Source of the DNA: Parvibaculum indicum
Lineage (GTDB): Bacteria > Pseudomonadota > Alphaproteobacteria > Parvibaculales > Parvibaculaceae
NCBI RefSeq assembly: GCF_011762095.1
Contig: NZ_JAASQO010000002.1
Span: forward strand, 124,001-188,000
DNA: 64,000 bases
Direction: 5' to 3'
Position numbers and translations under genes: made by a program. The notes under the pieces are model-generated. The model had not been told where the DNA came from, did no database searches, and worked only from the letters and a program-made list of their open reading frames with translations. Positions 1,926-29,334 of the stretch are shown here, one piece after another. Each line of letters begins with the position of its first letter. Position 1 is the first letter of the stretch.

Positions 1926-2293
1926 CAGCCCTCCCACCTCGCCGCGACGGTAACCTGCGTATCGCTCTCGTCGGTCCGCCTGATCTCGATCCGGTCGCAG
2001 TTGTCGATGCCGAAGATCGTGAAATTCGTCTGGTCGAACACGGGCACCGCGACGCCGTCGCCGTCCTGACGGAACTCGATGGTCGTGCCGGTATTGTTGA
2101 CGAGCGTCAGTTGCTTGCACGCCCGATCGGCAAAGGCCGTCCAGTCGGTGCCGGTCGCATTGGTCTGCGCGGCGATGTTGCCGCCCGTCGCCATCTGCGG
2201 GATGGTGGCAAGATTGCCCTGATCGTCGACATTGGCCGCATTCTCACCGATGCCCGGCGAGACGATCTGCACTGCGGAACCTGGATTTCCCAT
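1925..2293 (-). CDS. Small phage structural-type protein, unknown
   Basis: A 122-residue protein starting MGNPGSAVQIVSPGIGEN, with a beta-rich C-terminal half (LTLVNNTGTTIEFRQDG ... DRIEIRRTDE). It directly follows the large terminase gene, sharing its end, and precedes the DGR variable protein. In many phages the gene after the terminase is a head-tail connector, but this one does not look like gpW. It could be a tail or spike partner of the variable protein. No family assigned. Confidence 0.7.
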   Translation of the reverse strand: MGNPGSAVQIVSPGIGENAANVDDQGNLATIPQMATGGNIAAQTNATGTDWTAFADRACKQLTLVNNTGTTIEFRQDGDGVAVPVFDQTNFTIFGIDNCDRIEIRRTDESDTQVTVAARWEG

Positions 2294-4506
2294 TACCTGC
2301 CAATCCTCGAAAGATAGCTGGAGCGCCCGACCTTACGCTTCTTCGTCTTCGGCTTCTGGTCCGGTTTTTCCTGCGCGGGCGGCTGCGGCTTGTTCGCCTC
2401 GATGCGCTGCGCTTCGGACGTGCCTACCTTGACGACGGGCGTTTCCTCAGCTGCGCCGACCTTCTCGGCTTCGCGGTCGATGTCGATCTTGTGTTGCACG
2501 ATCAACCCCCAGAGTGCGGCATAGGCATAGACCCGGCAGTCCAGCGCTTCATGCGACTGGTCCCGCTTCCCTTCCCAGATGCGATAGGTCCGGCCCGCGC
2601 GCTTCTTCGTAACCAGCCTCTCGCCGGTCAATTGTGCGAAATACCCGGCATCGCGATCCGCCGGGAAATGCATGTATCCCCTGCCCGGCACCTCGATCTG
2701 CAGGCAGGACGATATGCGGTCCTTCGCGGCGTTCGTGCCGATGATGAAGGGCTTGTAGTCCCTCTTGCGCGAGCTTTTCCGCGTGGCGCGTCCGGACGGC
2801 CAGACCGGCGACCGGTTGCCGGACGTCTCGCTGTCGCCCTTGATCGCCCAGACCTTGCGCAACCGCCGCGCGCGGCAGAAGGCATAGACCGATTGCGTTC
2901 TGTGGCCGCCCGAGTCGACGCAGGTCGCGGCGACGGTAAACGGCCGCCCGTCCGCCCTCACGAAGGAGGACATCAGAATGGCGTCCAGACGCTCCCAGAC
3001 ATCGTCCTGATCCGGGTCGCCCTCGAGGACGCCATAGGCCAGCGACCAGGACTCCTCGCCCCGGCCCCAACCGACGATCTCGAACTCCAGCCGGTCGTCC
3101 TGCGTATCCACGCCGCAGGTGATGATGGCGACGCCGTCCGGCACCTGAGCGGCCCAGACCTCGCGCCGCTCCAGCAGCTTTTCCTGCTTGACCTCGCGAC
3201 CGATGCGCGGCCGGTAAGGCAATCCAAGCTGGGTGTTCCACCACGCCTGAAGCGCCTCGTCATTCCCCTGGGCGTCGATCCATTTCTTGGCAATGTTCCT
3301 CGGCTGATCTCGCGTCCACGGACTGAACAGCTTCGAGGAATGGAAGCTGGCATGTTCGTTATCGACGCCCCAGCTCCCGCAATCCGGGCACTTGGCGCGA
3401 CCGACCGCCCATCTGGGGCCCTCCCACCAGTCCCATATCTTGCCGACAGGATCTTCCGCACCCTCGCGCCATGCCTTTTCATAGGCATCGAGCGGAGAGT
3501 GAGTGCGTCCGCAGCAGGTGAAGGGCCTCGTCTGGTAGTAGCGCATCGTGCGCAGCGCCATGAGGCGCGCGCCTTCGGACCATCCTTCGCCGCAGGCCTC
3601 GCAATAGATGCGCGCCGTATGCGTCAGATGTTCGACGGTCTCGCCGCGGTCGTTCTTGACCTTGTCCCAGTCCACATGGCGAAAGAAATCGAGAAACTGC
3701 CTGTGCCCGCAATGTGGGCAGCTAACGGCAGCCTTTCGCTGATCGCCGTCGGCGTGGCTTTCCTCGATCCGGCTTTCGTCTTCGACCGTCGGCGAACAAA
3801 CGCGGATCGACAGCCAGTTGACGAAGGACGCCATGCGCTCGTCGCCAAGCGATATCGGATCGCCTTCGCGCGTGACCGGGTATTTGTCGATCTCGTCATA
3901 GAGAACGAGGCGCACCGGGCGACGAGCAAGGTTGTCCGGGCTACCGGCGCCGACCAGGGCGAGAAAGCCGCCCGGGAACTGATGAAAGGTCAACGTATTT
4001 TCCGGCTCGATGCCGGATGCTTCCTCACGGGCCCTTTCCGCCCTCGTTTTCCTGCGCTGTTTTCTGTTCGGCGTGATGAGTTGCCGAAGGACGGGAGTGG
4101 CCTTGATGAGCGGGATGATCCGCTCCTTCGAGAACTGTTCCGCCGCGTCATCTTTCGGCTGCACGAAAAGCATCGGCGCCGGGTCGAGATGAGCGTGAAA
4201 CCCGAAGACGTTGTTGATGAATTCCGTCTTCAAGAGCTGTGTGCATGCCATCAGGGTGATGATGTGCACACCCGGTTCGGTGACCGCCAGCATCGGGCCG
4301 CGCGCGGCCTCTACTGTGGAAGTATCCCAGTCGCCGCCCCGGCTTCCGCTTTCCTTCGCCAGCTTGCGGTATTTGTCGGCCCAGTCCGGCAGGCTGATCC
4401 GGGGCGGCGGCATCCAGCCGCGCTGCCAGGCCAGTCTCAGCCTATCCAGCTTCTCCTGCTGCGTCGGTATTCTGACCGCCGAGCTTTTCGAGGATGGACT
4501 GGACAT
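2293..4506 (-). CDS. Phage terminase large subunit, GpA family
   Basis: This 737-residue protein is the packaging motor and nuclease that cuts concatemers and pumps DNA into the procapsid. It has the GpA-type N-terminus (SLPDWADKYRKL), a deviant Walker A region near residue 90 (CTQLLKTE), a Walker B segment near residue 200 (RLVLYDEIDKYP), several CxxC pairs in the middle and the nuclease-domain start GVDTQDDRLEFEIVGW near residue 460. Length and order fit lambda-like GpA proteins. The start overlaps the end of the small terminase gene by 65 bases. Confidence 0.95.
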   Translation of the reverse strand: MSSPSSKSSAVRIPTQQEKLDRLRLAWQRGWMPPPRISLPDWADKYRKLAKESGSRGGDWDTSTVEAARGPMLAVTEPGVHIITLMACTQLLKTEFINNVFGFHAHLDPAPMLFVQPKDDAAEQFSKERIIPLIKATPVLRQLITPNRKQRRKTRAERAREEASGIEPENTLTFHQFPGGFLALVGAGSPDNLARRPVRLVLYDEIDKYPVTREGDPISLGDERMASFVNWLSIRVCSPTVEDESRIEESHADGDQRKAAVSCPHCGHRQFLDFFRHVDWDKVKNDRGETVEHLTHTARIYCEACGEGWSEGARLMALRTMRYYQTRPFTCCGRTHSPLDAYEKAWREGAEDPVGKIWDWWEGPRWAVGRAKCPDCGSWGVDNEHASFHSSKLFSPWTRDQPRNIAKKWIDAQGNDEALQAWWNTQLGLPYRPRIGREVKQEKLLERREVWAAQVPDGVAIITCGVDTQDDRLEFEIVGWGRGEESWSLAYGVLEGDPDQDDVWERLDAILMSSFVRADGRPFTVAATCVDSGGHRTQSVYAFCRARRLRKVWAIKGDSETSGNRSPVWPSGRATRKSSRKRDYKPFIIGTNAAKDRISSCLQIEVPGRGYMHFPADRDAGYFAQLTGERLVTKKRAGRTYRIWEGKRDQSHEALDCRVYAYAALWGLIVQHKIDIDREAEKVGAAEETPVVKVGTSEAQRIEANKPQPPAQEKPDQKPKTKKRKVGRSSYLSRIGR

Positions 4507-7288: not shown

Positions 7289-8156
7289 CGGTGCGTCCTT
7301 CGGGCATGGGTTTCAGCCGCTTCGCCTTGGCGTCGGCGATGATGCTGTCGAAATAAAACCAGCTTCGGATGGTGTGGGGCCGCCCCCTGGCGGCATGGGC
7401 GCGCACCGCCGGAAGCACGTCCAGCTCCCAGTCGGCGCCGCTTTCCAGCCATGTCAGCGGCCGCGCCATGGAGAGCAGGTCGGGCCCGGCGGGCACGTTG
7501 AGCGCGTTTCCCGCCGCCTCGAAAAGCTGCTCCTCCATTTCCGGCGTGATTCGCGTTCCGTCGCGCGCGCGCGCGTCAGCAGCAGCAGTAATATTCTGGT
7601 GTATGGGGACTGGAGTCTGGTGAGCTTTTGTCTGGGTTTCTGTTTTCGAAGGGCTGGGTTTCCGCTGGGTTTCGTTTTCGGAACCTCTGGGTTCCTGCTG
7701 GGTTTCGTTTTCAAAACCCTTGGGTTCTTGCTGGGTTTCGTTTTCAAAACCCCTGGGTTTTTTCTGGGTTTCGTTATTAAAACCAGTGGGTTCTTCCCGG
7801 GTTTCTTTTTCCTTCGCGTCCTGACGCTTCTTCGGGCGCCCGCCGCGCGCGCCATTCACCTTGGCAGCCTCTATCCGGGCTTTCGTTTTCGATATCTCTT
7901 CCTCGGCCCGATTGTTTATCCACACCCCGTCGACCAGCGTAAAAAACTCATCCAGCACCGCGTCGACAGCGGCCTTTTCTTCCTCCGTCCGCGCTCGGGC
8001 CAGTCGGTGGGCGGATGCCTCCGGAATGCCCTCCTCGGTCCCGTAATAGCGATCCAGCAGGATGCTGTAGGCACCATGCTCAAGCATCGACAGGTGAGCC
8101 GTGTCCTTCGCGTAGTCGCCAAGATGTCTTTCGTAAAAGTTCACCTGATCCCCCAC
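7206..8156 (-). CDS. YdaU-like (DUF1376) phage replication protein
   Basis: This 316-residue protein begins with the DUF1376/YdaU signature: NFYERHLGDYAKDTAHLSMLEHGAYSILLDRYY at residues 6-38, given in pieces NFYERHLGDY and MLEHGAYSILLDRYY. Such proteins act in phage replication initiation together with a helicase loader. A basic linker (GARGGRPKKRQ) is followed by six 11-residue repeats (residues 117-182). The C-terminal half (PEMEEQLFEAAGNAL, TWLESGADWELDVLP..) resembles the conserved tail of these proteins. It overlaps the DnaA-like gene upstream by 16 bases. Confidence 0.82.
   Translation of the reverse strand: MGDQVNFYERHLGDYAKDTAHLSMLEHGAYSILLDRYYGTEEGIPEASAHRLARARTEEEKAAVDAVLDEFFTLVDGVWINNRAEEEISKTKARIEAAKVNGARGGRPKKRQDAKEKETREEPTGFNNETQKKPRGFENETQQEPKGFENETQQEPRGSENETQRKPSPSKTETQTKAHQTPVPIHQNITAAADARARDGTRITPEMEEQLFEAAGNALNVPAGPDLLSMARPLTWLESGADWELDVLPAVRAHAARGRPHTIRSWFYFDSIIADAKAKRLKPMPEGRTDDRSSNRQTGGTGRRRATYVGIASSGD
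7611..7808 (-). repeat. Six 33-bp tandem repeats inside the YdaU-like gene
   Basis: The repeats encode units of 11 residues of the form NETQxxPxGFE, at residues 117-182 of the YdaU-like protein. Units 2 to 4 are nearly identical; the first, fifth and sixth have diverged. The plus strand shows the matching pattern CTGGGTTTCGTTTTC every 33 bases. Such arrays change copy number easily and act as flexible linkers. Confidence 0.9.
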
Positions 8157-8512
8157 ATCATTCTCACGCGCAACCGGGCGCGAAGGGTCGCCATGTCGCC
8201 CAGCGCCGTCTTGTCGCTTTCCATGGCCGCTTCCACGCGGCGGATCGCATGCATCACCGTCGTGTGATCCCGCCGCTGAAACGCCGCGGCGAGCTGCGGC
8301 AGGCTCTTGCCGCAGCTCTCATGGGCGAGATACATGGCGACATGGCGCACGAAGCAGAGCCGCCGGCGGCGGCTGTCGCCCAGGATGGCCTCCACCGGCT
8401 CGTCATAGTGCCGCGACACTTCGCGGATGACCTCCCAGACCATCGGCTTCCGTCCGCCCCGGCGCGCCGCCTCCGGCGCAGGCGTCGATTTCCGTTGTAC
8501 CGCCGCGCTCAT
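8141..8512 (-). CDS. DnaA domain-IV-like DNA-binding protein
   Basis: A 123-residue protein whose second half matches the DnaA C-terminal origin-binding domain: LPQLAAAFQRRDHTTVMHAI at residues ~76-95 contains the DnaA signature (RDHTTV.HA). The AAA+ domain of DnaA is absent. It probably binds DnaA-box-like sites in the phage or host origin. It lies between a methyltransferase gene and the YdaU-like replication gene. Its ATG overlaps the methyltransferase stop region (ATGA). Confidence 0.85.
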   Translation of the reverse strand: MSAAVQRKSTPAPEAARRGGRKPMVWEVIREVSRHYDEPVEAILGDSRRRRLCFVRHVAMYLAHESCGKSLPQLAAAFQRRDHTTVMHAIRRVEAAMESDKTALGDMATLRARLRVRMMWGIR

Positions 8513-9525
8513 GACCGCTCCTCGATGACGTCGAAAATCGTCGGCGCGGCGGCTTCCTGTTCCTCATGGGCCAGATACCGGCAGGCCTGCCGCCAATAGC
8601 TTTCCTTGAGTTCGATCCCGATGAAGCGCCGTCTCTGCCGCAGCGCCACCACGCCCTCGCTCCCGATCCCCATGAAGGGCGACAGCACGACGTCTCCGGG
8701 GTTGGACCAGAGCATGGTCGCCCGCGTGGTGATATCGAGCGGCATGGGGCAGATGTGTTTTTCGTCGTCCGGCTCGCGATGGGCGTTCAGCACGTCCGTC
8801 TCGCGCGTGTCCATCCATACCGGGCTCGCATAGTCCTGCCATTGCCCGAGCGGAAATCCGGCCATCCGGCGGGCGTCCTCCGGCGACAGTTCCACGCCCG
8901 CGCCCAGCGCCCGCTCGCTTGCGCGGGCGCTCTCCGCCGCCAGCTCTTCCGCGTTTTCCGGATTGGCATGCGTGACGGGCGCAATCCCCTCGCCTTCCCC
9001 CGCCCATTTGCGGAAGACGACGAGATATTCGGGAAGCCCCTGCCGGGAGAAGGACGAGTCGGCCCGAAGCTGCTTGTAGAGCAGGCCATGCGCCTTGGTT
9101 TTCGTCATCTCCCGAACGGGGCAGCGCCAGATCGTCACGCGGGAGTGGAAGTTGAACCCCGCCTCCTGATGAACGCGGATCAGCTCTCCCGGAAAGTCCC
9201 TGAGCCCCGCCGTGCCGCGCTGCGACTTGTAGAACACCAGATCCTTGCAGTGCACCGCGACGAGGCGGCCGGGCCGCGTGACGCGGTAGAGTTCGCGCGC
9301 GAGGAAGCGGTAATGCTCGAAAAACTCGTCATCGTCGGCGCTGTTTCCCATATCGGCGATGCTGTCATTGTAGATGTAGAGGCCGGAGAAAGGCGGCGAG
9401 TAGACGGAAAAATCCACGGACCCGTCCGGCATCTGGGCGACGATATCCACGCAGTCGCCCTGATAGGCGGCCCAGCTCTTCGCGACTTCGGCATTCAGAC
9501 AATCGATCATGCGGCCCTCATCCAT
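8509..9525 (-). CDS. Phage DNA amino-methyltransferase (beta-class order)
   Basis: A 338-residue SAM-dependent methyltransferase. The catalytic motif SPPF is at residues 43-46 (motif IV), and the SAM-binding motif (VVLSPFMGIGSEG) followed by FIGIELKESYW comes near residue 285, so motif IV precedes motif I as in beta-class enzymes. SPPF/SPPY is common in N4-cytosine and some N6-adenine enzymes; the target base cannot be decided. It overlaps the helicase gene by 19 bases. It is not a CcrM type, which has DPPY and a C-terminal DNA-binding domain. Confidence 0.88.
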   Translation of the reverse strand: MDEGRMIDCLNAEVAKSWAAYQGDCVDIVAQMPDGSVDFSVYSPPFSGLYIYNDSIADMGNSADDDEFFEHYRFLARELYRVTRPGRLVAVHCKDLVFYKSQRGTAGLRDFPGELIRVHQEAGFNFHSRVTIWRCPVREMTKTKAHGLLYKQLRADSSFSRQGLPEYLVVFRKWAGEGEGIAPVTHANPENAEELAAESARASERALGAGVELSPEDARRMAGFPLGQWQDYASPVWMDTRETDVLNAHREPDDEKHICPMPLDITTRATMLWSNPGDVVLSPFMGIGSEGVVALRQRRRFIGIELKESYWRQACRYLAHEEQEAAAPTIFDVIEERS

Positions 9526-10877
9526 TCCGGGAGCGGCGCCCTGTGGCGCGGCTCATATGCAACCTTGAGACTGGCGGCGCGGCCCAGCGCGCGCTTCATG
9601 GCGGCGACCATGGCTTCCTGCATGTGCCGGTGATCGCCCGCCTTGCGATCGATAACCCGCCCGATGGAGCGTTCGCCGTCGGCGACGACGAGGTCGGCCC
9701 GCACAGGCCGTGTCTGCCCGAAGCGCCAGAAGCGCCGCACGGTCTGATACCAGGCCTCATAGGAGAAGCTGCGGCCGACATAGACGGGGTGATTGCAGTG
9801 CTGCCAGTTGAGCCCGAAACCGGCGATGCTGGGCTTGGTGAGCAGCTTCGTCACCGTGCCGTCGGCAAAGGCCTCCAGATTGCGCTCCTTCACCGCGGCG
9901 GGCTGGCTGCCCCGCACCTCCACGATTTCCGGGCAGAGCGCCTTCACCGCGTCGGCTTCATAGTCCGTATCGACCCAGATGACGCAGGGCTCGGCATCCG
10001 ACATGGCGAGTTCGACGCCCAGCGCGGCGCGTAGAGCCGCCGTGCGGCGTTTGGTGGCGTGGATCTCGGTGGCCGACAGCTTTTCGAGCCCCAGAAGCCC
10101 CGCCGCCGATGCGTCGGGATCGTCCACGAAATGCGGCACGACCTCCAGCGGCGGCAGGACGAAGCCCTCATCCGAGCCGCCCAGATCGGACGGCATCATC
10201 GCCATGCGGCTCCAGGACGCCATCCAGTCCCAGAAATGCTTTTCGCCATGCGTCTTGAGGCGATACCGCCCCATCGCCGTCTGGTCGGCCGTGAACCAGC
10301 GCATCAGCATTTCGCTGGACTGCATCACACTCAGGAACTCGGCATGCTGGCCCAGCTCCATATGGTCGTTCGGCGCGGGCGTCGCGGTGGCGGAGAGCTT
10401 GAAGCGCGTCTGGGCGAATAGGTCGATCAGCGTCCGCGTCGTCTTGCCCGTGAAATTCTTGATGATGCCGCTCTCGTCGAGCGCGGTGCCGCCATAGGCC
10501 CCCGCATCGATCAGGTGCAAGCGGTCGTAATTGACGATGTTGATGCCCTCGCGCGCATCGTCCTCGCTCCGGATGACCCGTGCGTCATAGCCGAACCGCT
10601 TGCCCTCCCGCGCGATCTGCGGGGCCACCGCCAGCGGAGCGCAGATGAGCGATCGCCCGTTCGTCGCCTCGCCCGCATGCCGGCAGAATTCGAGCTCCAC
10701 ACCCGTCTTGCCGAGGCCGGTATCGAGGAACGCCCCCGCCCGCCCGGCCCGCAACGCGAAATCCACCGTGACGGCCTGCTGCGTCATGAGGTGTGACGAC
10801 AGCGGCGGCGGTTCGATGCCCGTCATGGGCGCCACAGGGGCCTTGGAGGCGAGGAATTCGGCATATTCCGGGGTCAT
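9507..10877 (-). CDS. Phage SF2/Snf2-like DNA helicase
   Basis: A 456-residue helicase of the Snf2-like branch. Walker A is LDTGLGKT near residues 51-58, the DExx box reads LDESG near residue 133, the SATA motif (LSATATPAPND) follows, and motif VI is RRFWRFGQTRP near residue 387. Such proteins are frequent in phages next to methyltransferases. They may remodel DNA during replication or recombination. The start overlaps the next gene upstream by 4 bases (ATGA). Confidence 0.9.
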   Translation of the reverse strand: MTPEYAEFLASKAPVAPMTGIEPPPLSSHLMTQQAVTVDFALRAGRAGAFLDTGLGKTGVELEFCRHAGEATNGRSLICAPLAVAPQIAREGKRFGYDARVIRSEDDAREGINIVNYDRLHLIDAGAYGGTALDESGIIKNFTGKTTRTLIDLFAQTRFKLSATATPAPNDHMELGQHAEFLSVMQSSEMLMRWFTADQTAMGRYRLKTHGEKHFWDWMASWSRMAMMPSDLGGSDEGFVLPPLEVVPHFVDDPDASAAGLLGLEKLSATEIHATKRRTAALRAALGVELAMSDAEPCVIWVDTDYEADAVKALCPEIVEVRGSQPAAVKERNLEAFADGTVTKLLTKPSIAGFGLNWQHCNHPVYVGRSFSYEAWYQTVRRFWRFGQTRPVRADLVVADGERSIGRVIDRKAGDHRHMQEAMVAAMKRALGRAASLKVAYEPRHRAPLPEWMRAA

Positions 10878-11110
10878 GTGCGCCTCCGGATCGCGAAGCG
10901 GCCGCAGAGCGCTTCTATCTGGGGCGTTTTTCCGTCGGGCAGCAGAGCGAGCTTGCCGTTTTCATCGGTTTTGTACTTCCGGAGCCAACCGGCGATTGTG
11001 TCCACCTCGACCACATAGTCGATGACGTTTCCGGTCTGGATATCCACAACCTCGATGTTGGTCCAATCCTCCGGCGGTCCACCCGCTTTGGCGTAGGTGA
11101 TATCGGTCAT
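10874..11110 (-). CDS. Small phage protein, unknown
   Basis: A 78-residue protein (MTDITYAKAGGPPEDWTNIE ...) with a beta-rich middle (VVDIQTGNVIDYVVEVD) and a C-terminal RFAIRRRT. ATGA overlaps at both ends link it to the methyltransferase-like gene and the helicase. No domain recognised. Confidence 0.72.
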   Translation of the reverse strand: MTDITYAKAGGPPEDWTNIEVVDIQTGNVIDYVVEVDTIAGWLRKYKTDENGKLALLPDGKTPQIEALCGRFAIRRRT

Positions 11111-12819
11111 GCCACGGCCTCCCGCAGGGCATATCCACCCCACTGAGATGCAATCGCCGCGGCCATGCCGGGATATGTCTTGCTCCGCTCCTTCCAGCGA
11201 TCCGGGCTCGGCGAGGCGCGGTGCACACCCGACCACTGCGCATGTTCCTTCGTGCCAGACGCAGGCGGCTCCAGTTTGTTCGTCGGGACAAGACGCGGGA
11301 GTCCTTCCAGATAGAAGTTCGTCGCCTTGAAGGCCGGTTCCCCGAACCACCATGGCTGAACCGTCTGTCGCGCATCATCAGAGTAGTTGTCGATCAGCGC
11401 CTTTGCGTGCCGGTGCATGACCGGGTTTTCTACCCCCTTGCGGGGGATGTCAGCGTTCCAGCACTTCGAGAAAAGGTCCGCGCCATCCCGAAGCTCGCTC
11501 CACATGAACGCCAGCCGCTCGTCCCGATCCATGGCTGCGTAAGCGGCGATCTTGTCGGCCCCGTAGTGCCCGGCCGTCAGACGCTTGGGTGGCTCGTGCA
11601 GCCATCGCACCCCTGAATTGCAAAGCCTCGTACAGTTGTGGACGATCACGCCGTTCGCGGTGTAGGTCTCATCCTCTTCGACCGAGAGGTTAAAAACGAC
11701 GGCCTGCTGAAGCTTATGGATGACGGATCGGACGTGCCCCCACGCGTAATCTCCATCTACGTAATTTCTTAGACGCTCATTCGCGTTTCCTATGCTGATG
11801 CTGATTGAAGGCCTTTGGCGTACCGTGCGCCCTTGGATTTCGACGGTAGGATTCCTTTCGAAGATGCCCAACCTTGGGCATTTGTCGTAGACACGCTGCA
11901 TGAGAATAGCGATGCCAAGCGCCAACCGCGGCGAAACGGTCGCTGCGGATGTATCCCGTTCGCGGATATAGCCATCCCCGCTCAGGTAACCCTGAAGAAA
12001 CGCTATGGCCTGCTGTTTGGGCAGCTCCATGACCCATACAGGAAGAGTCTTTTTGTGTGCGTATAGCCCGAATTGCGCAAAATCCTTGATTGCGTCATGG
12101 CCGTAGAAAGTCGCTCGGTAGGCTGTGCCGTTCCACCTAATGCTACATTTGCGAGGGCAGACCCGCTTGAATTCCTCAAACTCATGTGCTCCCACCGCAA
12201 GGTTCATCTCCTCCCACTTGCCGTCAGTCCAGCGGCTGCGACGCATGTGGCCGTCAGCCACGTATCGCCCCATCAGCCATAGGTCGTCGTCGCTGATGTT
12301 AACGGCCGTAGTGGGTGGCAGGACCGATCCGACGAAGTGGCGCGTCGAAAGGGCTCCAGCTTGAATGAACTCTGCCGGCCCGTCTCGCTCCTTCAGGGAG
12401 CGGAAACCATGCGCGCATGGCGCTCGGAAGCGGGCATAGAACGGATGTTCTGGCGTGGTCGTAATGGGGAGCGCATTAGTCGCCTTGAGGGCCAGAAGAT
12501 CATTGGTGCTTTTGTTCATCGTCTCTGTGACACGGCGCCACCGGCCGCGATGCGTAAGAACAAGGTCTCCAACAACAACATCCTCAATCGGAATATGCCC
12601 CCGTTTCGTCAACACGAGGGTACCGGCGACAAAACACGGAGGATGAAAGACAGCGAGCAGATCCCAGCCATCGTCGAGATAGTCGCGCACATCGCCGATG
12701 ATGTGCCGATTGCTCATATCCTCCGAGGGCAGCAGGTCTACCGACCAAACGTCGTGACCCAGCGCCGCGAACGCACGACGCACAATGCCAGATTGCTCAC
12801 ATCCGACGAGTATCTTCAC
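11107..12819 (-). CDS. Phage methyltransferase-like protein interrupted by an intein
   Basis: The precursor has 570 residues: N-extein 1-61, intein 62-395, C-extein 396-570. The joined exteins give a 236-residue protein starting KILVGCEQSG and containing HPP|CTRLCNSGVRWL, where the bar marks the splice point. This resembles a phage family often annotated as DNA cytosine methyltransferase, with a Rossmann-type start (CEQSGIVRRAFAALGH) and a PPC motif. I chose GTG 12819, with AGGAG 8 bases upstream, overlapping the gcrA-like stop (GTGA). The C-extein ends with a basic, aromatic segment (SPDRWKERSKTYPGM) also known from this phage family. Activity of the enzyme is not proven. Confidence 0.85.
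   Translation of the reverse strand: MKILVGCEQSGIVRRAFAALGHDVWSVDLLPSEDMSNRHIIGDVRDYLDDGWDLLAVFHPPCFVAGTLVLTKRGHIPIEDVVVGDLVLTHRGRWRRVTETMNKSTNDLLALKATNALPITTTPEHPFYARFRAPCAHGFRSLKERDGPAEFIQAGALSTRHFVGSVLPPTTAVNISDDDLWLMGRYVADGHMRRSRWTDGKWEEMNLAVGAHEFEEFKRVCPRKCSIRWNGTAYRATFYGHDAIKDFAQFGLYAHKKTLPVWVMELPKQQAIAFLQGYLSGDGYIRERDTSAATVSPRLALGIAILMQRVYDKCPRLGIFERNPTVEIQGRTVRQRPSISISIGNANERLRNYVDGDYAWGHVRSVIHKLQQAVVFNLSVEEDETYTANGVIVHNCTRLCNSGVRWLHEPPKRLTAGHYGADKIAAYAAMDRDERLAFMWSELRDGADLFSKCWNADIPRKGVENPVMHRHAKALIDNYSDDARQTVQPWWFGEPAFKATNFYLEGLPRLVPTNKLEPPASGTKEHAQWSGVHRASPSPDRWKERSKTYPGMAAAIASQWGGYALREAVA
11635..12636 (-). other. Intein with LAGLIDADG-type homing endonuclease
   Basis: 334 codons with all splicing blocks visible: Cys1 with block A (CFVAGTLVLTKRGHIPIEDV), block B (TTTPEHPFY, histidine at intein residue 64), two dodecapeptide-like motifs (LMGRYVADG at ~122-130 and FLQGYLSGDGY at ~213-223), and blocks F and G (VFNLSVEEDETY ... 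GVIVHN) with the +1 residue Cys. Both dodecapeptides keep an acidic residue (D129 and D221), so the endonuclease may be intact. It sits exactly between HPP and CT of the host protein, the most conserved spot. Confidence 0.95.
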
Positions 12820-13409
12820 CACACGAACTCCTGAGGTCCTTTCGATACGGGCCGCCTGGCCGCTTCGGCTTCCTTCCGCCGTGCCGCCCGGCGCATGCGC
12901 GTCCCGTTCGCTTCCAGCGTCCTGACCCTGTGGAAGCTGCAATAGGGCCCGTCCCCTACGCGGTCGTTCGGACAGAAATGGAAATCGGGATGCGACGGCT
13001 CCCCCATGGGGAAACGGCATTGCGCTGGCCCGCCGCCGCGCGGATCGCCCCGCAGCGCCATGACGGCCTCGGGCGCGCCTGTCGGCACCCCCTCCGGAGG
13101 AATGACAGGCTCTTCCGCCGCCTTGCGGCGCCCGGGCATTTTCGGACCCTTCGCCTCCTTCCGGGGCGCAGCCCGTCCGCGCGGCGCGGCGGGTGGCTTG
13201 CACCGGGCAGCGCGGGGATGCGCGGATTTCGACATCCACTTGCCTTCGCCGCGCCGCGACAGGCCCAAACGGTGCACCTTGCCGATGACCGCATTGCGCG
13301 TGATCCCGTCGCCCAGCGCCTTGGCGATCTGGGAGCAGCTATAGCCGTCGGCCCACATCTTGCGCAGCGCATCGATGTGCGCTTCCGTCCAGACCTTCGC
13401 TCTAGACAT
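12816..13409 (-). CDS. Phage-encoded GcrA-family regulator
   Basis: A 197-residue protein. The N-terminus (WTEAHIDALRKMWADGYSCS, then QIAKALGDGITRNAVIGKVHRLGL) is the GcrA helix-turn-helix domain. The C-terminal part keeps the cysteine/histidine cluster typical of GcrA (QCRFPMGEPSHPDFHFC ... GPYCSFHR). In Caulobacter, GcrA binds RNA polymerase sigma-70 at GANTC-methylated promoters and controls cell-cycle genes. The middle is basic and proline-rich. A phage copy could redirect host cell-cycle transcription; this is inference. It shares 4 bases with the next gene. Confidence 0.9.
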   Translation of the reverse strand: MSRAKVWTEAHIDALRKMWADGYSCSQIAKALGDGITRNAVIGKVHRLGLSRRGEGKWMSKSAHPRAARCKPPAAPRGRAAPRKEAKGPKMPGRRKAAEEPVIPPEGVPTGAPEAVMALRGDPRGGGPAQCRFPMGEPSHPDFHFCPNDRVGDGPYCSFHRVRTLEANGTRMRRAARRKEAEAARRPVSKGPQEFVW

Positions 13410-13735: not shown

Positions 13736-14236
13736 TCACTCCCCGCATCCGGGGCCGACTTCCCCGGCATTGTCCCGGGCGACGAAGTCGTACCAGGGCA
13801 CGAAGCCCTTCGGGCAGTGAAAGCCCCATGTGCGGATCTTCGGGCCTGTGAGAAAAAGCGACCAGCAGCCGCTCGAGCGGAAGCCCTGCACGACGAACTC
13901 CGTCTTTCCGACGGAAGAGGGTTTCACCCTCGGCAGCTCCAGCCGATGCGTGGCCGTCGCGCGGCGGAAGGTGACGGAACCGGGCTTGCGCCAGAAACGG
14001 CCCGCCGGGGTCACATCGTAATACCCCCCCCGTAGCACGATGGAGCAGTTCACCCAGGGATGGTCATGAAGCGCGCGATCGTCGTCGTCGCGCAGCACTT
14101 CATGCAGATAGATGTTGAAGAAGCGATTGCGCGGGATGACGTACCAGCGCCGAAGGTAGTCCGACCCCGGCTTGCCGATGACGAAATCCGGCGCGCGCCG
14201 GCTGACCCTGTCGATGATGAGATCGGCGATGTTCAT
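13736..14236 (-). CDS. Cupin-like phage protein
   Basis: A 166-residue protein with the pattern RWYVIPRNRFFNIYLHEVLR, DDDRALHDHPW, SIVLRGGYYDVTP, ATATHRLELP and LFLTGPKIRTWGFHCP. The HDHPW motif, the later histidine (THRLEL) and the repeated beta strands resemble a single-domain cupin. This type is common as an uncharacterised protein in alphaproteobacterial phages. The histidines suggest metal binding; substrate unknown. Confidence 0.75.
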   Translation of the reverse strand: MNIADLIIDRVSRRAPDFVIGKPGSDYLRRWYVIPRNRFFNIYLHEVLRDDDDRALHDHPWVNCSIVLRGGYYDVTPAGRFWRKPGSVTFRRATATHRLELPRVKPSSVGKTEFVVQGFRSSGCWSLFLTGPKIRTWGFHCPKGFVPWYDFVARDNAGEVGPGCGE

Positions 14237-27498: not shown

Positions 27499-27676
27499 AC
27501 GGATCGACGAAATCGTAGCACGCGAAAAAAATGTGCGGCTAATGCGGCTGGAACGCCGCGCTGCGGTCGCCCTTATGTTCTTTTCTCCTGACGAGTGCTC
27601 TTGGGTCTACAGACCAAACGATGCGCCGTTCGACCCGCTACTCGGAATACAGGTCGAGGCTAGGCCTGACCCATGA
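27479..27676 (+). CDS. Small protein before the integrase
   Basis: A 65-residue helical protein (MNDRLDKRIDEIVAREKNVR ...). It overlaps the integrase gene by 4 bases (ATGA), so it is co-translated with it. It could be a recombination directionality factor, which is often a small gene next to a serine integrase, but no family match supports this. Confidence 0.55.
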   Translation: MNDRLDKRIDEIVAREKNVRLMRLERRAAVALMFFSPDECSWVYRPNDAPFDPLLGIQVEARPDP

Positions 27677-29301
27677 CCCGCGCCGTCATCTATGCCCGCT
27701 TCTCCACCGAGATGCAGCAGGAATCCTCCATCGAGGATCAGGTATCCCTCTGCCGCGCCCATGCCCGGCGCGACGGGCATGACGTCGTTGCCGTCTACAG
27801 CGATCGCGCGCGCTCCGGCGGGTCCATGTTCGGCCGCGACGGGTTGATGGACATGATGGAGGCGGCCAAGGCCGGACGGTTCGATGTCCTCGTCGTGGAA
27901 TCGCTGGACCGCCTCTCCCGCGACATGGAGGATCTGGCCGGGCTCTACAAGCGCCTGGGCTTCATGGGGATCGATATTTCCGCCGTGCATGAAGGCGTGG
28001 CCAATACGGTCACCATCGGCCTGCGCGGGCTTGTGGGGCAGCTCTACCGGGAAGACAACGCCAAGAAAATCAGGCGCGGCATGTCCGGCGTCGTGCGCGG
28101 CGGCCGCCACGCAGGCGGGCGCGCCTATGGCTATCGCGCCGTGGCAGGCGCGCCCGGAGAACTGGAAATCGACGAAGCCGAAGCCGCCATCGTGCGGCGC
28201 ATCTTTGCCGAATATGCCGCGGGCCGCGTTCCGCGCGAGATCGCAGGCGATTTGAACCGCGAGGGCATCGCCCCGCCGCGCGGGCGGCAATGGAACGCCT
28301 CCACCATCAACGGCAATGCCAGGCGCGGCAGCGGCATCGTCTTCAACGAGCTTTATGTCGGCCGCATCGTCTGGAACAAGGTCCGCATGGTCCGCCACCC
28401 GGATACGGGCCGGAAGATTTCCCGCCCCAACCCGAAAGATCAGTGGGAGTCGGCCGCCGCGCCGCATCTTCGCATCGTCGATGATGAAACCTGGGCGAAG
28501 GTCCACGAACTCAAAAGCGGGCGTGGCGGCGAGCATGTCAAAAGGGGGCGACGGGGAAGCTATCTCCTTTCCGGCCTGCTGAAATGCGGATGCTGTGGCA
28601 GCGGGCTTTCTATCCACGACTATGACAAGACAGGCAAGGCCCGTGTGCGATGTTCAGCCGTCAGGGAGAGTGGGGCCTGCTCCAACCGGCGCATCCTCTA
28701 TCTGCGCGACGTGGAAGCTGCGGTGCTGGACGGCATGCGCGCCCAGCTTCGCGATCCGCGCCTGATCGAGATTTATGTGCGGAAATACAATGAAGAGCGC
28801 CGCCGCCTCGCATCGGGCCGCGCCCAGCGCAGGATGAAGATGGAGGTCCGGCTGGGAGAAATCGCCCGCGAGATCGACCGGCTTGTGACAGCGATCGCGA
28901 AAGGCGAAATGCCGGGCGCCGTGGCAGGGCCGATGACGGCGAAGCTCGATGCGGAAAAGCAGGAACTGGAAGAGCAGCTGGGGGGCATGGAGGCCGCACC
29001 GAAGGTGGTCTCGATTCATCCCGCGACCATCGACCAGTACCTCGCCACCGTGGACCGGCTGGCGGAAACGCTGACCGATCACGCCACTGCGAAGGAAGAC
29101 AGAGGCCCGCTGATCGCCGATATGCGAAGCCTCATCCACACCGTCACCGTGCATCCGGACGGTCCGAAAGGCCCGTTCGACGTGGAAGTAAAAGGAAAGC
29201 TCGCCGCGCTCATGGAGGCCCCGGTGTTCCCGCAGGCCCGCCATAGTGGGTTTGCGGTGGTAGCGGAGGAGGGACTCGAACCCCCGACACGCGGATTATG
29301 A
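27673..29301 (+). CDS. Large serine recombinase (phage integrase)
   Basis: A 542-residue large serine recombinase. The resolvase domain has catalytic Ser11 (YARFSTEMQQESSIEDQ), the arginine-rich catalytic loop (ESLDRLSRDMEDL) and LYREDNAKKIRRGM. A recombinase domain follows (GYRAVAG..., then RIFAEYAAGRVPREIA). Next come a zinc ribbon (LLKCGCCGSGLSIHDY ... VRCSAVRESGACSN) and a coiled coil near residues 400-450. The protein ends EEGLEPPTRGL; these last codons are the 3' end of the tRNA-Met gene. Length fits the family. It drives integration and is the last gene of the rightward operon. Confidence 0.95.
   Translation: MTRAVIYARFSTEMQQESSIEDQVSLCRAHARRDGHDVVAVYSDRARSGGSMFGRDGLMDMMEAAKAGRFDVLVVESLDRLSRDMEDLAGLYKRLGFMGIDISAVHEGVANTVTIGLRGLVGQLYREDNAKKIRRGMSGVVRGGRHAGGRAYGYRAVAGAPGELEIDEAEAAIVRRIFAEYAAGRVPREIAGDLNREGIAPPRGRQWNASTINGNARRGSGIVFNELYVGRIVWNKVRMVRHPDTGRKISRPNPKDQWESAAAPHLRIVDDETWAKVHELKSGRGGEHVKRGRRGSYLLSGLLKCGCCGSGLSIHDYDKTGKARVRCSAVRESGACSNRRILYLRDVEAAVLDGMRAQLRDPRLIEIYVRKYNEERRRLASGRAQRRMKMEVRLGEIAREIDRLVTAIAKGEMPGAVAGPMTAKLDAEKQELEEQLGGMEAAPKVVSIHPATIDQYLATVDRLAETLTDHATAKEDRGPLIADMRSLIHTVTVHPDGPKGPFDVEVKGKLAALMEAPVFPQARHSGFAVVAEEGLEPPTRGL
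29258..29301. other. Prophage right attachment site inside tRNA-Met
   Basis: The last 44 bases of the integrase reading frame are identical to the 3' part of the tRNA gene (anticodon stem, variable loop, T arm, acceptor end, CCA). The tRNA 5' half lies on the host side and its 3' half on the phage side, as expected if the phage brings its own copy of the tRNA end. The matching copy at the left prophage end is off-window, so the exact core cannot be given. Confidence 0.8.
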
Positions 29302-29334
29302 TTCCGCTGCTCTAACCAGCTGAGCTACTCCGCC
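29258..29334 (-). tRNA. tRNA-Met (CAT), attachment site of the prophage
   Basis: A 77-base tRNA with encoded CCA. The acceptor arm is GGCGGAG/CTCCGCT, the D arm contains AGCTCAG, the anticodon stem is GCGGA/TCCGC with loop ATCATAA (anticodon CAT) and the T loop is GTTCGAGTC. The G1-U72 pair excludes an initiator tRNA (which has an unpaired C-A end). Elongator Met is most likely; a CAT tRNA-Ile with modified C34 cannot be excluded. Confidence 0.96.

Follow-up and report, generated by a model that had tools for sequence, protein, structure and literature searches.

Within the window, the whole stretch of 64,000 nucleotides analysed here, the gene at positions 11107–12819 encodes a conserved phage protein whose PPC motif is split by a long in-frame insertion. 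This raises the question of what the insertion is and whether it may still splice and spread. An earlier note, made from the sequence, had claimed an intein with homing-endonuclease motifs; its frame, coordinates and lengths proved correct. The gene lies on the minus strand (-), as do all of its parts given below. It specifies an intein-interrupted methyltransferase precursor of 570 aa (570 open codons), beginning with a GTG codon and ending at a stop codon at 11107–11109. The GTG at 12819 was taken as the true start because it overlaps the stop codon of the upstream gcrA-like gene (GTGA). On the basis of the frame and the alignment of homologues, the N-extein comprises 61 aa (12637–12819) and ends in ...FHPP, residue -1 being Pro. 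It is followed by the 334 aa intein (CFVAGT...VIVHN; precursor residues 62–395; 11635–12636), which was delimited by profiles, a fold model and alignment, and by the 175 aa C-extein (11110–11634), which begins at Cys+1 (C-T-R-L-C) according to its phrog_757 match and the homologue alignment. Joining of the two exteins gives a spliced product of 236 aa. The G+C content of the intein (0.564) is slightly below that of the exteins (0.619).

Profile searches recognised the splicing domain. The intein matched Pfam Hint_2 (E 3e-9) and the NCBIfam intein C-terminal model TIGR01443 (E 5e-7), both above the models' own cut-offs, and it matched the NCBIfam intein N-terminal model (E 2e-3) and the Intein_splicing profile slightly below theirs. 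In an alignment with 22 related inteins, residues Cys1, His64, D128, D221 and Asn334 are invariant. Cys1 is the block A nucleophile (12634–12636), and His64 belongs to block B, T61-P-E-H64 (12445–12456), of which T61 is conserved in at least 90% of these inteins. Blocks F and G, VVFNLSVEEDETYTANGVIVHN (11635–11700), were assigned from the alignment together with the TIGR01443 match. In block F the window intein has Asn, as do many of its relatives, at a position where Asp is usual. The sequence thus has the class 1 features, namely Cys1, a TxxH block B, an H333-N334 end and Cys+1. It is very improbable that we are dealing with a degenerate, non-splicing intein in a dead gene, since all class 1 residues are present, the frame contains no stop or frameshift and both domains are constrained.

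An AlphaFold model of the intein, built on the alignment of 22 relatives (the window intein plus rows derived from the scans), had a mean pLDDT of 93.8. Its best match in the PDB was the TliVMA intein (Z 27.8 over 295 residues), and further matches were complete, endonuclease-bearing inteins across residues 1–334: PI-PkoII (Z 26.9), PI-SceI (20.7) and PI-PfuI (19.5). The model therefore has a Hint fold, as judged by Z values of 15–28 against solved inteins. TliVMA, PI-PkoII and PI-SceI share with the window intein the same two-domain build over its full length (Z about 20–28), but they reside in other exteins, at other sites, and are only about 13–20% identical to it in sequence. The Hint, intein-end and LAGLIDADG profiles, the full-length fold match, and the same-site relatives and empty alleles described below place the identification of an intein in the PPC motif far beyond chance.

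The second domain of the intein, a LAGLIDADG homing endonuclease, spans about residues 113–290 (11767–12300, limits approximate), as deduced from matches of the model to PI-PkoII, PI-PfuI and I-DmoI. The alignment located its two motifs, L119-WLMGRYVADG-129 with catalytic D128 (12250–12282) and F213-LQGYLSGDG-222 with catalytic D221 (11971–12000). The LAGLIDADG_3 profile matched with an E value of 2e-4, slightly below its own cut-off. Two motifs with their acidic residues are thus found, in the 22 rows as well as in the model, within a fold of two half-domains, and the proposal that both acidic residues are kept is borne out by the invariance of D128 and D221 in the 22 related inteins. When the window intein was compared with that of metagenome contig L060, pN/pS was 0.21 for the endonuclease region and 0.25 for the N-terminal splicing region; over all pairs of the inteins the ranges were 0.21–0.48 and 0.25–0.49, respectively. 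Because synonymous sites are saturated these are rough estimates, which suggest that nonsynonymous changes are restrained about equally in the two regions.

That the interrupted host is a phage methyltransferase-like protein, as had been proposed, is supported by the match of the C-extein to the PHROGs profile phrog_757, DNA methyltransferase (E 3e-45). The sequence HPPCTRLC is invariant in 29 aligned homologues that lack an intein. An intein-free allele, L063, was used to model the extein with AlphaFold (pLDDT 91.9), and a Foldseek search with this model gave C5 cytosine methyltransferases as best matches. After re-alignment, the best 50 PDB rows were all C5-type cytosine DNA methyltransferases (Z 10.8–11.9, rmsd 3.7–4.4, about 184–210 residues), headed by DNMT3A (Z 11.9), DNMT1 (11.7) and M.HhaI (11.6). 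In the L063 model PPC follows strand 56–59 and ENP follows strand 128–133, with C64 and E132 invariant; motifs IV and VI of C5 enzymes likewise follow successive strands. The PPC triplet is therefore very probably motif IV of a C5-methyltransferase fold, which contains the catalytic cysteine, and ENP (11422–11430), located after the next strand and having its Glu and Pro invariant in the 29 homologues, is the predicted, ENV-like motif VI. On the HPPCTRLC conservation and the fold match, Cys+1 (11632–11634) would act as the nucleophile in splicing and would also be the catalytic cysteine of motif IV. The extein matched neither the Pfam C5-methylase model (DNA_methylase) nor, by sequence search, any solved structure, and hhalign of the extein family against canonical C5 enzymes gave no match with a thin profile (Neff 2). 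Consequently, the catalytic role of the cysteine rests on fold and conservation, and we infer from the fold, not from a sequence profile, that the extein works like a C5 methyltransferase.

Our best explanation, in which we have high confidence, is that the insertion is a class 1 (Cys1 / Asn-C-terminal / Cys+1) LAGLIDADG homing intein inserted into a prophage-encoded DNA methyltransferase with a C5-like fold, directly before the predicted motif IV cysteine, and that it may both splice and home. The precursor would be translated as a single chain, and because its PPC motif is split and Cys+1 is the predicted catalytic residue, the methyltransferase would be inactive until splicing. Cys1 would attack the Pro-Cys junction, Cys+1 would take over the thioester and Asn334 would cyclise, upon which the exteins would join as HPPCTRLC and the enzyme would be restored. 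The endonuclease would then cut the uninterrupted HPP/CT codons (the slash marks the insertion point) of a co-infecting phage or a second prophage, and the intein would spread when the break is repaired from the occupied copy.

The flank of the first splicing step is unusual in that residue -1 is Pro, as it is in 4/4 inteins at HPP/CT and in 21/25 inteins at C5 sites. Pro at -1 slows the first splicing step in some model inteins. This feature, and the coincidence of the splice-junction cysteine with a cysteine predicted to be necessary for the enzyme, could fit a conditional switch, in which splicing is delayed or triggered (by redox state, or by the change from lysogenic to lytic growth) and times the methyltransferase activity. 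We regard such a switch as improbable, as about 100 relatives lack the intein and its patchy distribution suits a selfish element better. The intein is best seen as such an element, which would survive at HPP/CT because the HPPCTRLC codons hardly vary and cannot easily change.

Two scans and a search of the genus together yielded 104 distinct extein sequences, of which 100 are empty, with HPP joined directly to CT, and 4 are occupied. Three further genomes of the genus carry empty alleles, which group with Parvibaculum sequences and suggest that the prophage host is a Parvibaculum. The occupied alleles, all at HPP/CT, are those of the window prophage, L060, Roseicella sp. DB1501 (L002/L061) and L062, another metagenome contig; a repeat scan for further same-site occupied alleles gave only the same four. 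The inteins of the Roseicella isolate genome and of the two metagenome viral contigs are 57–73% identical to the window intein and occupy the identical codon position. With such copies elsewhere, and with the intein-bearing gene found at one single place in its own assembly, the chance that the insertion is an artefact of assembly or annotation is negligible. No second intein of the same kind was found in the genome, and among 385 Alphaproteobacteria genomes the intein model had a full-length match in this genome only, the other 11 genomes with a match showing short N-terminal Hint stretches.

Mobility was assessed on the extein tree by counting the changes forced by well-supported branches. 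The four occupied alleles fall in four separate places and force four changes, each allele lying beside an empty one: the window allele beside L063/L118, L060 beside a Henriciella sequence, Roseicella beside a Xanthobacteraceae sequence and L062 beside L133. In the intein tree, the four HPP/CT inteins form one clade (support 100/100). Since occupied alleles are scattered over the extein tree and their inteins form a single clade, gain or loss of the intein has occurred repeatedly, and the element is mobile over time. Such a scatter of occupied alleles is in keeping with homing. A very recent transfer is not visible, because the intein pairs follow two large extein clades and the window and L060 inteins are 73% identical, which resembles the 69–78% identity of their exteins. 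Gene conversion at the insertion site, considered because the N-extein is 87% and the C-extein 69% identical to an empty Parvibaculum allele, was rejected as many homologues show the same difference between N- and C-extein.

These data bear on another reading, according to which the intein splices, the endonuclease is already dead, and the element persists after fixation with no present homing. This reading would fit the small number of distinct occupied alleles (four) among the sequence sets searched, the resemblance between intein and extein identities of the window/L060 pair, and the absence, among the inteins found, of nearly identical copies in different exteins, so that recent transfer is not seen. 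The two catalytic Asp residues, the intact frame, a constraint on the endonuclease like that on the splicing region and the confidently predicted fold argue against it, and we consider it possible but rather unlikely.

To which inteins is this element related? The seed alignment of an earlier search contained methyltransferase inteins, which biased its counts, and fairer counts were obtained by searching phage and plasmid collections with the window intein alone. Full-length matches in the phage collection were mainly in methyltransferases: N4/N6 methylases of mycobacteriophages, C5 enzymes of a faecal phage, B22, Nyseid, Lana and a Mannheimia phage, and P1-like dmt genes. Inteins of ribonucleotide reductase, thymidylate synthase and portal proteins came next. 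In the plasmid collection 135 records matched, 114 of them from Escherichia, and among the best 10 records are inteins lying in C5 genes as well as in P1-like genes whose annotation reads Dam-family or cytosine methyltransferase. Every C5 case that was read has the intein directly before the motif IV cysteine, at P/CQ or SPD/CT, and the same position was found in the three plasmid cases read (E. coli, Rhizobium and Euzebya). In the intein tree the four HPP/CT inteins group with the C5-site and N4/N6-site inteins (support 93/88); this broader group also includes a few non-methyltransferase inteins, and the trees single out no nearest sister for the four.

Inteins have been reported in the mycobacteriophage DNA methyltransferases DNMT-1/2 (PMC5050341), and a mycobacteriophage methylase family with inteins has been described (PMC9957025). 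Like the window intein, those of phage Minnie gp69 and its kin are LAGLIDADG inteins in a phage DNA methyltransferase with a patchy distribution, and they are about 31–36% identical to it over the full length. They differ from it in protein and site, being inserted at HV/CPLQ in a fusion of helicase and N4/N6 methylase, and they end in KN in nearly all rows instead of HN. The P/CQ inteins in motif IV of canonical C5 methyltransferases from phages and plasmids (among others those of Propionibacterium phage B22 and Pseudomonas phage Lana, and of P1-like dmt) are related to the window intein (about 28–39% identity) and, like it, lie immediately in front of the motif IV cysteine, but their hosts have no detectable sequence kinship to the window extein and the DNA of the two sites shares little beyond CCN/TGY. 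A literature search with little coverage of subscription journals found no relevant paper on inteins in C5 methyltransferases or P1 dmt. The site in the E. coli plasmid pLH50-c-C (L247) was read as a P1-like dmt/cytosine methyltransferase gene with a related intein before the motif IV cysteine; among the roughly 114 matching Escherichia plasmid records, it is in L247 only that the site was read. In Mannheimia phage 587AP2 (L250, 1264–3584) the intein-bearing C5 gene appears broken, in that the reading beyond the intein ceases to resemble usual C5 sequences shortly past CQ; a gene for an HNH endonuclease comes after it. We tentatively propose, at somewhat below even chances, that one phage-intein lineage tracks the motif IV cysteine of C5-type methyltransferases across hosts of dissimilar sequence (GGFP/CQ, SPD/CTHFS and HPP/CT) and has also reached N4/N6 methylases; homing or rare transposition may have crossed families via a few conserved codons.

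The nesting of the intein within a prophage, also claimed before, agrees with the genes framing the region: a tail protein (710–1777), a terminase large subunit (2293–4506), a serine-type integrase (27673–29301) and tRNA-Met (29258–29334). By coordinate arithmetic, the end of this phage in its IMG/VR record falls at about window position 29301. The large integrase gene (+) overlaps the end of the tRNA-Met gene (-), where the prophage probably integrated. An N4/N6 methylase and a helicase are encoded by adjacent, overlapping genes (8509–9525 and 9507–10877, both (-)), which look like the unfused form of the intein-carrying mycobacteriophage helicase-methylase; their EKHI-CPMPLD motif corresponds to the HV/CPLQ site without an intein. 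Directly upstream of the methyltransferase gene, and overlapping its start, is a gene for a GcrA-like cell cycle regulator (12816–13409 (-); Pfam E 4e-31). GcrA reads DNA methylation in Caulobacter, and the pairing of a GcrA-like gene with phage methylases is suggestive. The prophage also encodes a small protein with a DnaA C-terminal DNA-binding domain (8141–8512 (-); Pfam E 5e-22) and a protein (13736–14236 (-)) whose match in PHROGs is a family called cysteine dioxygenase (E 1e-54); this protein is conserved in actinobacterial and proteobacterial phages.

Mobile elements of this kind are already known, and the closest inteins elsewhere are mostly in other phage DNA methyltransferases. Within the literature searched, HPP/CT is apparently an undescribed insertion site, and it adds an alphaproteobacterial prophage host to the phage methyltransferase inteins. 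Natural empty and occupied partner alleles are on hand for homing tests, and inteins that, to judge from their sequences, splice naturally after Pro at -1 could be useful tools. If the wider pattern is true, transfer of inteins across families becomes testable, and one intein lineage would exploit the single cysteine codon that C5 methyltransferases are bound to keep.
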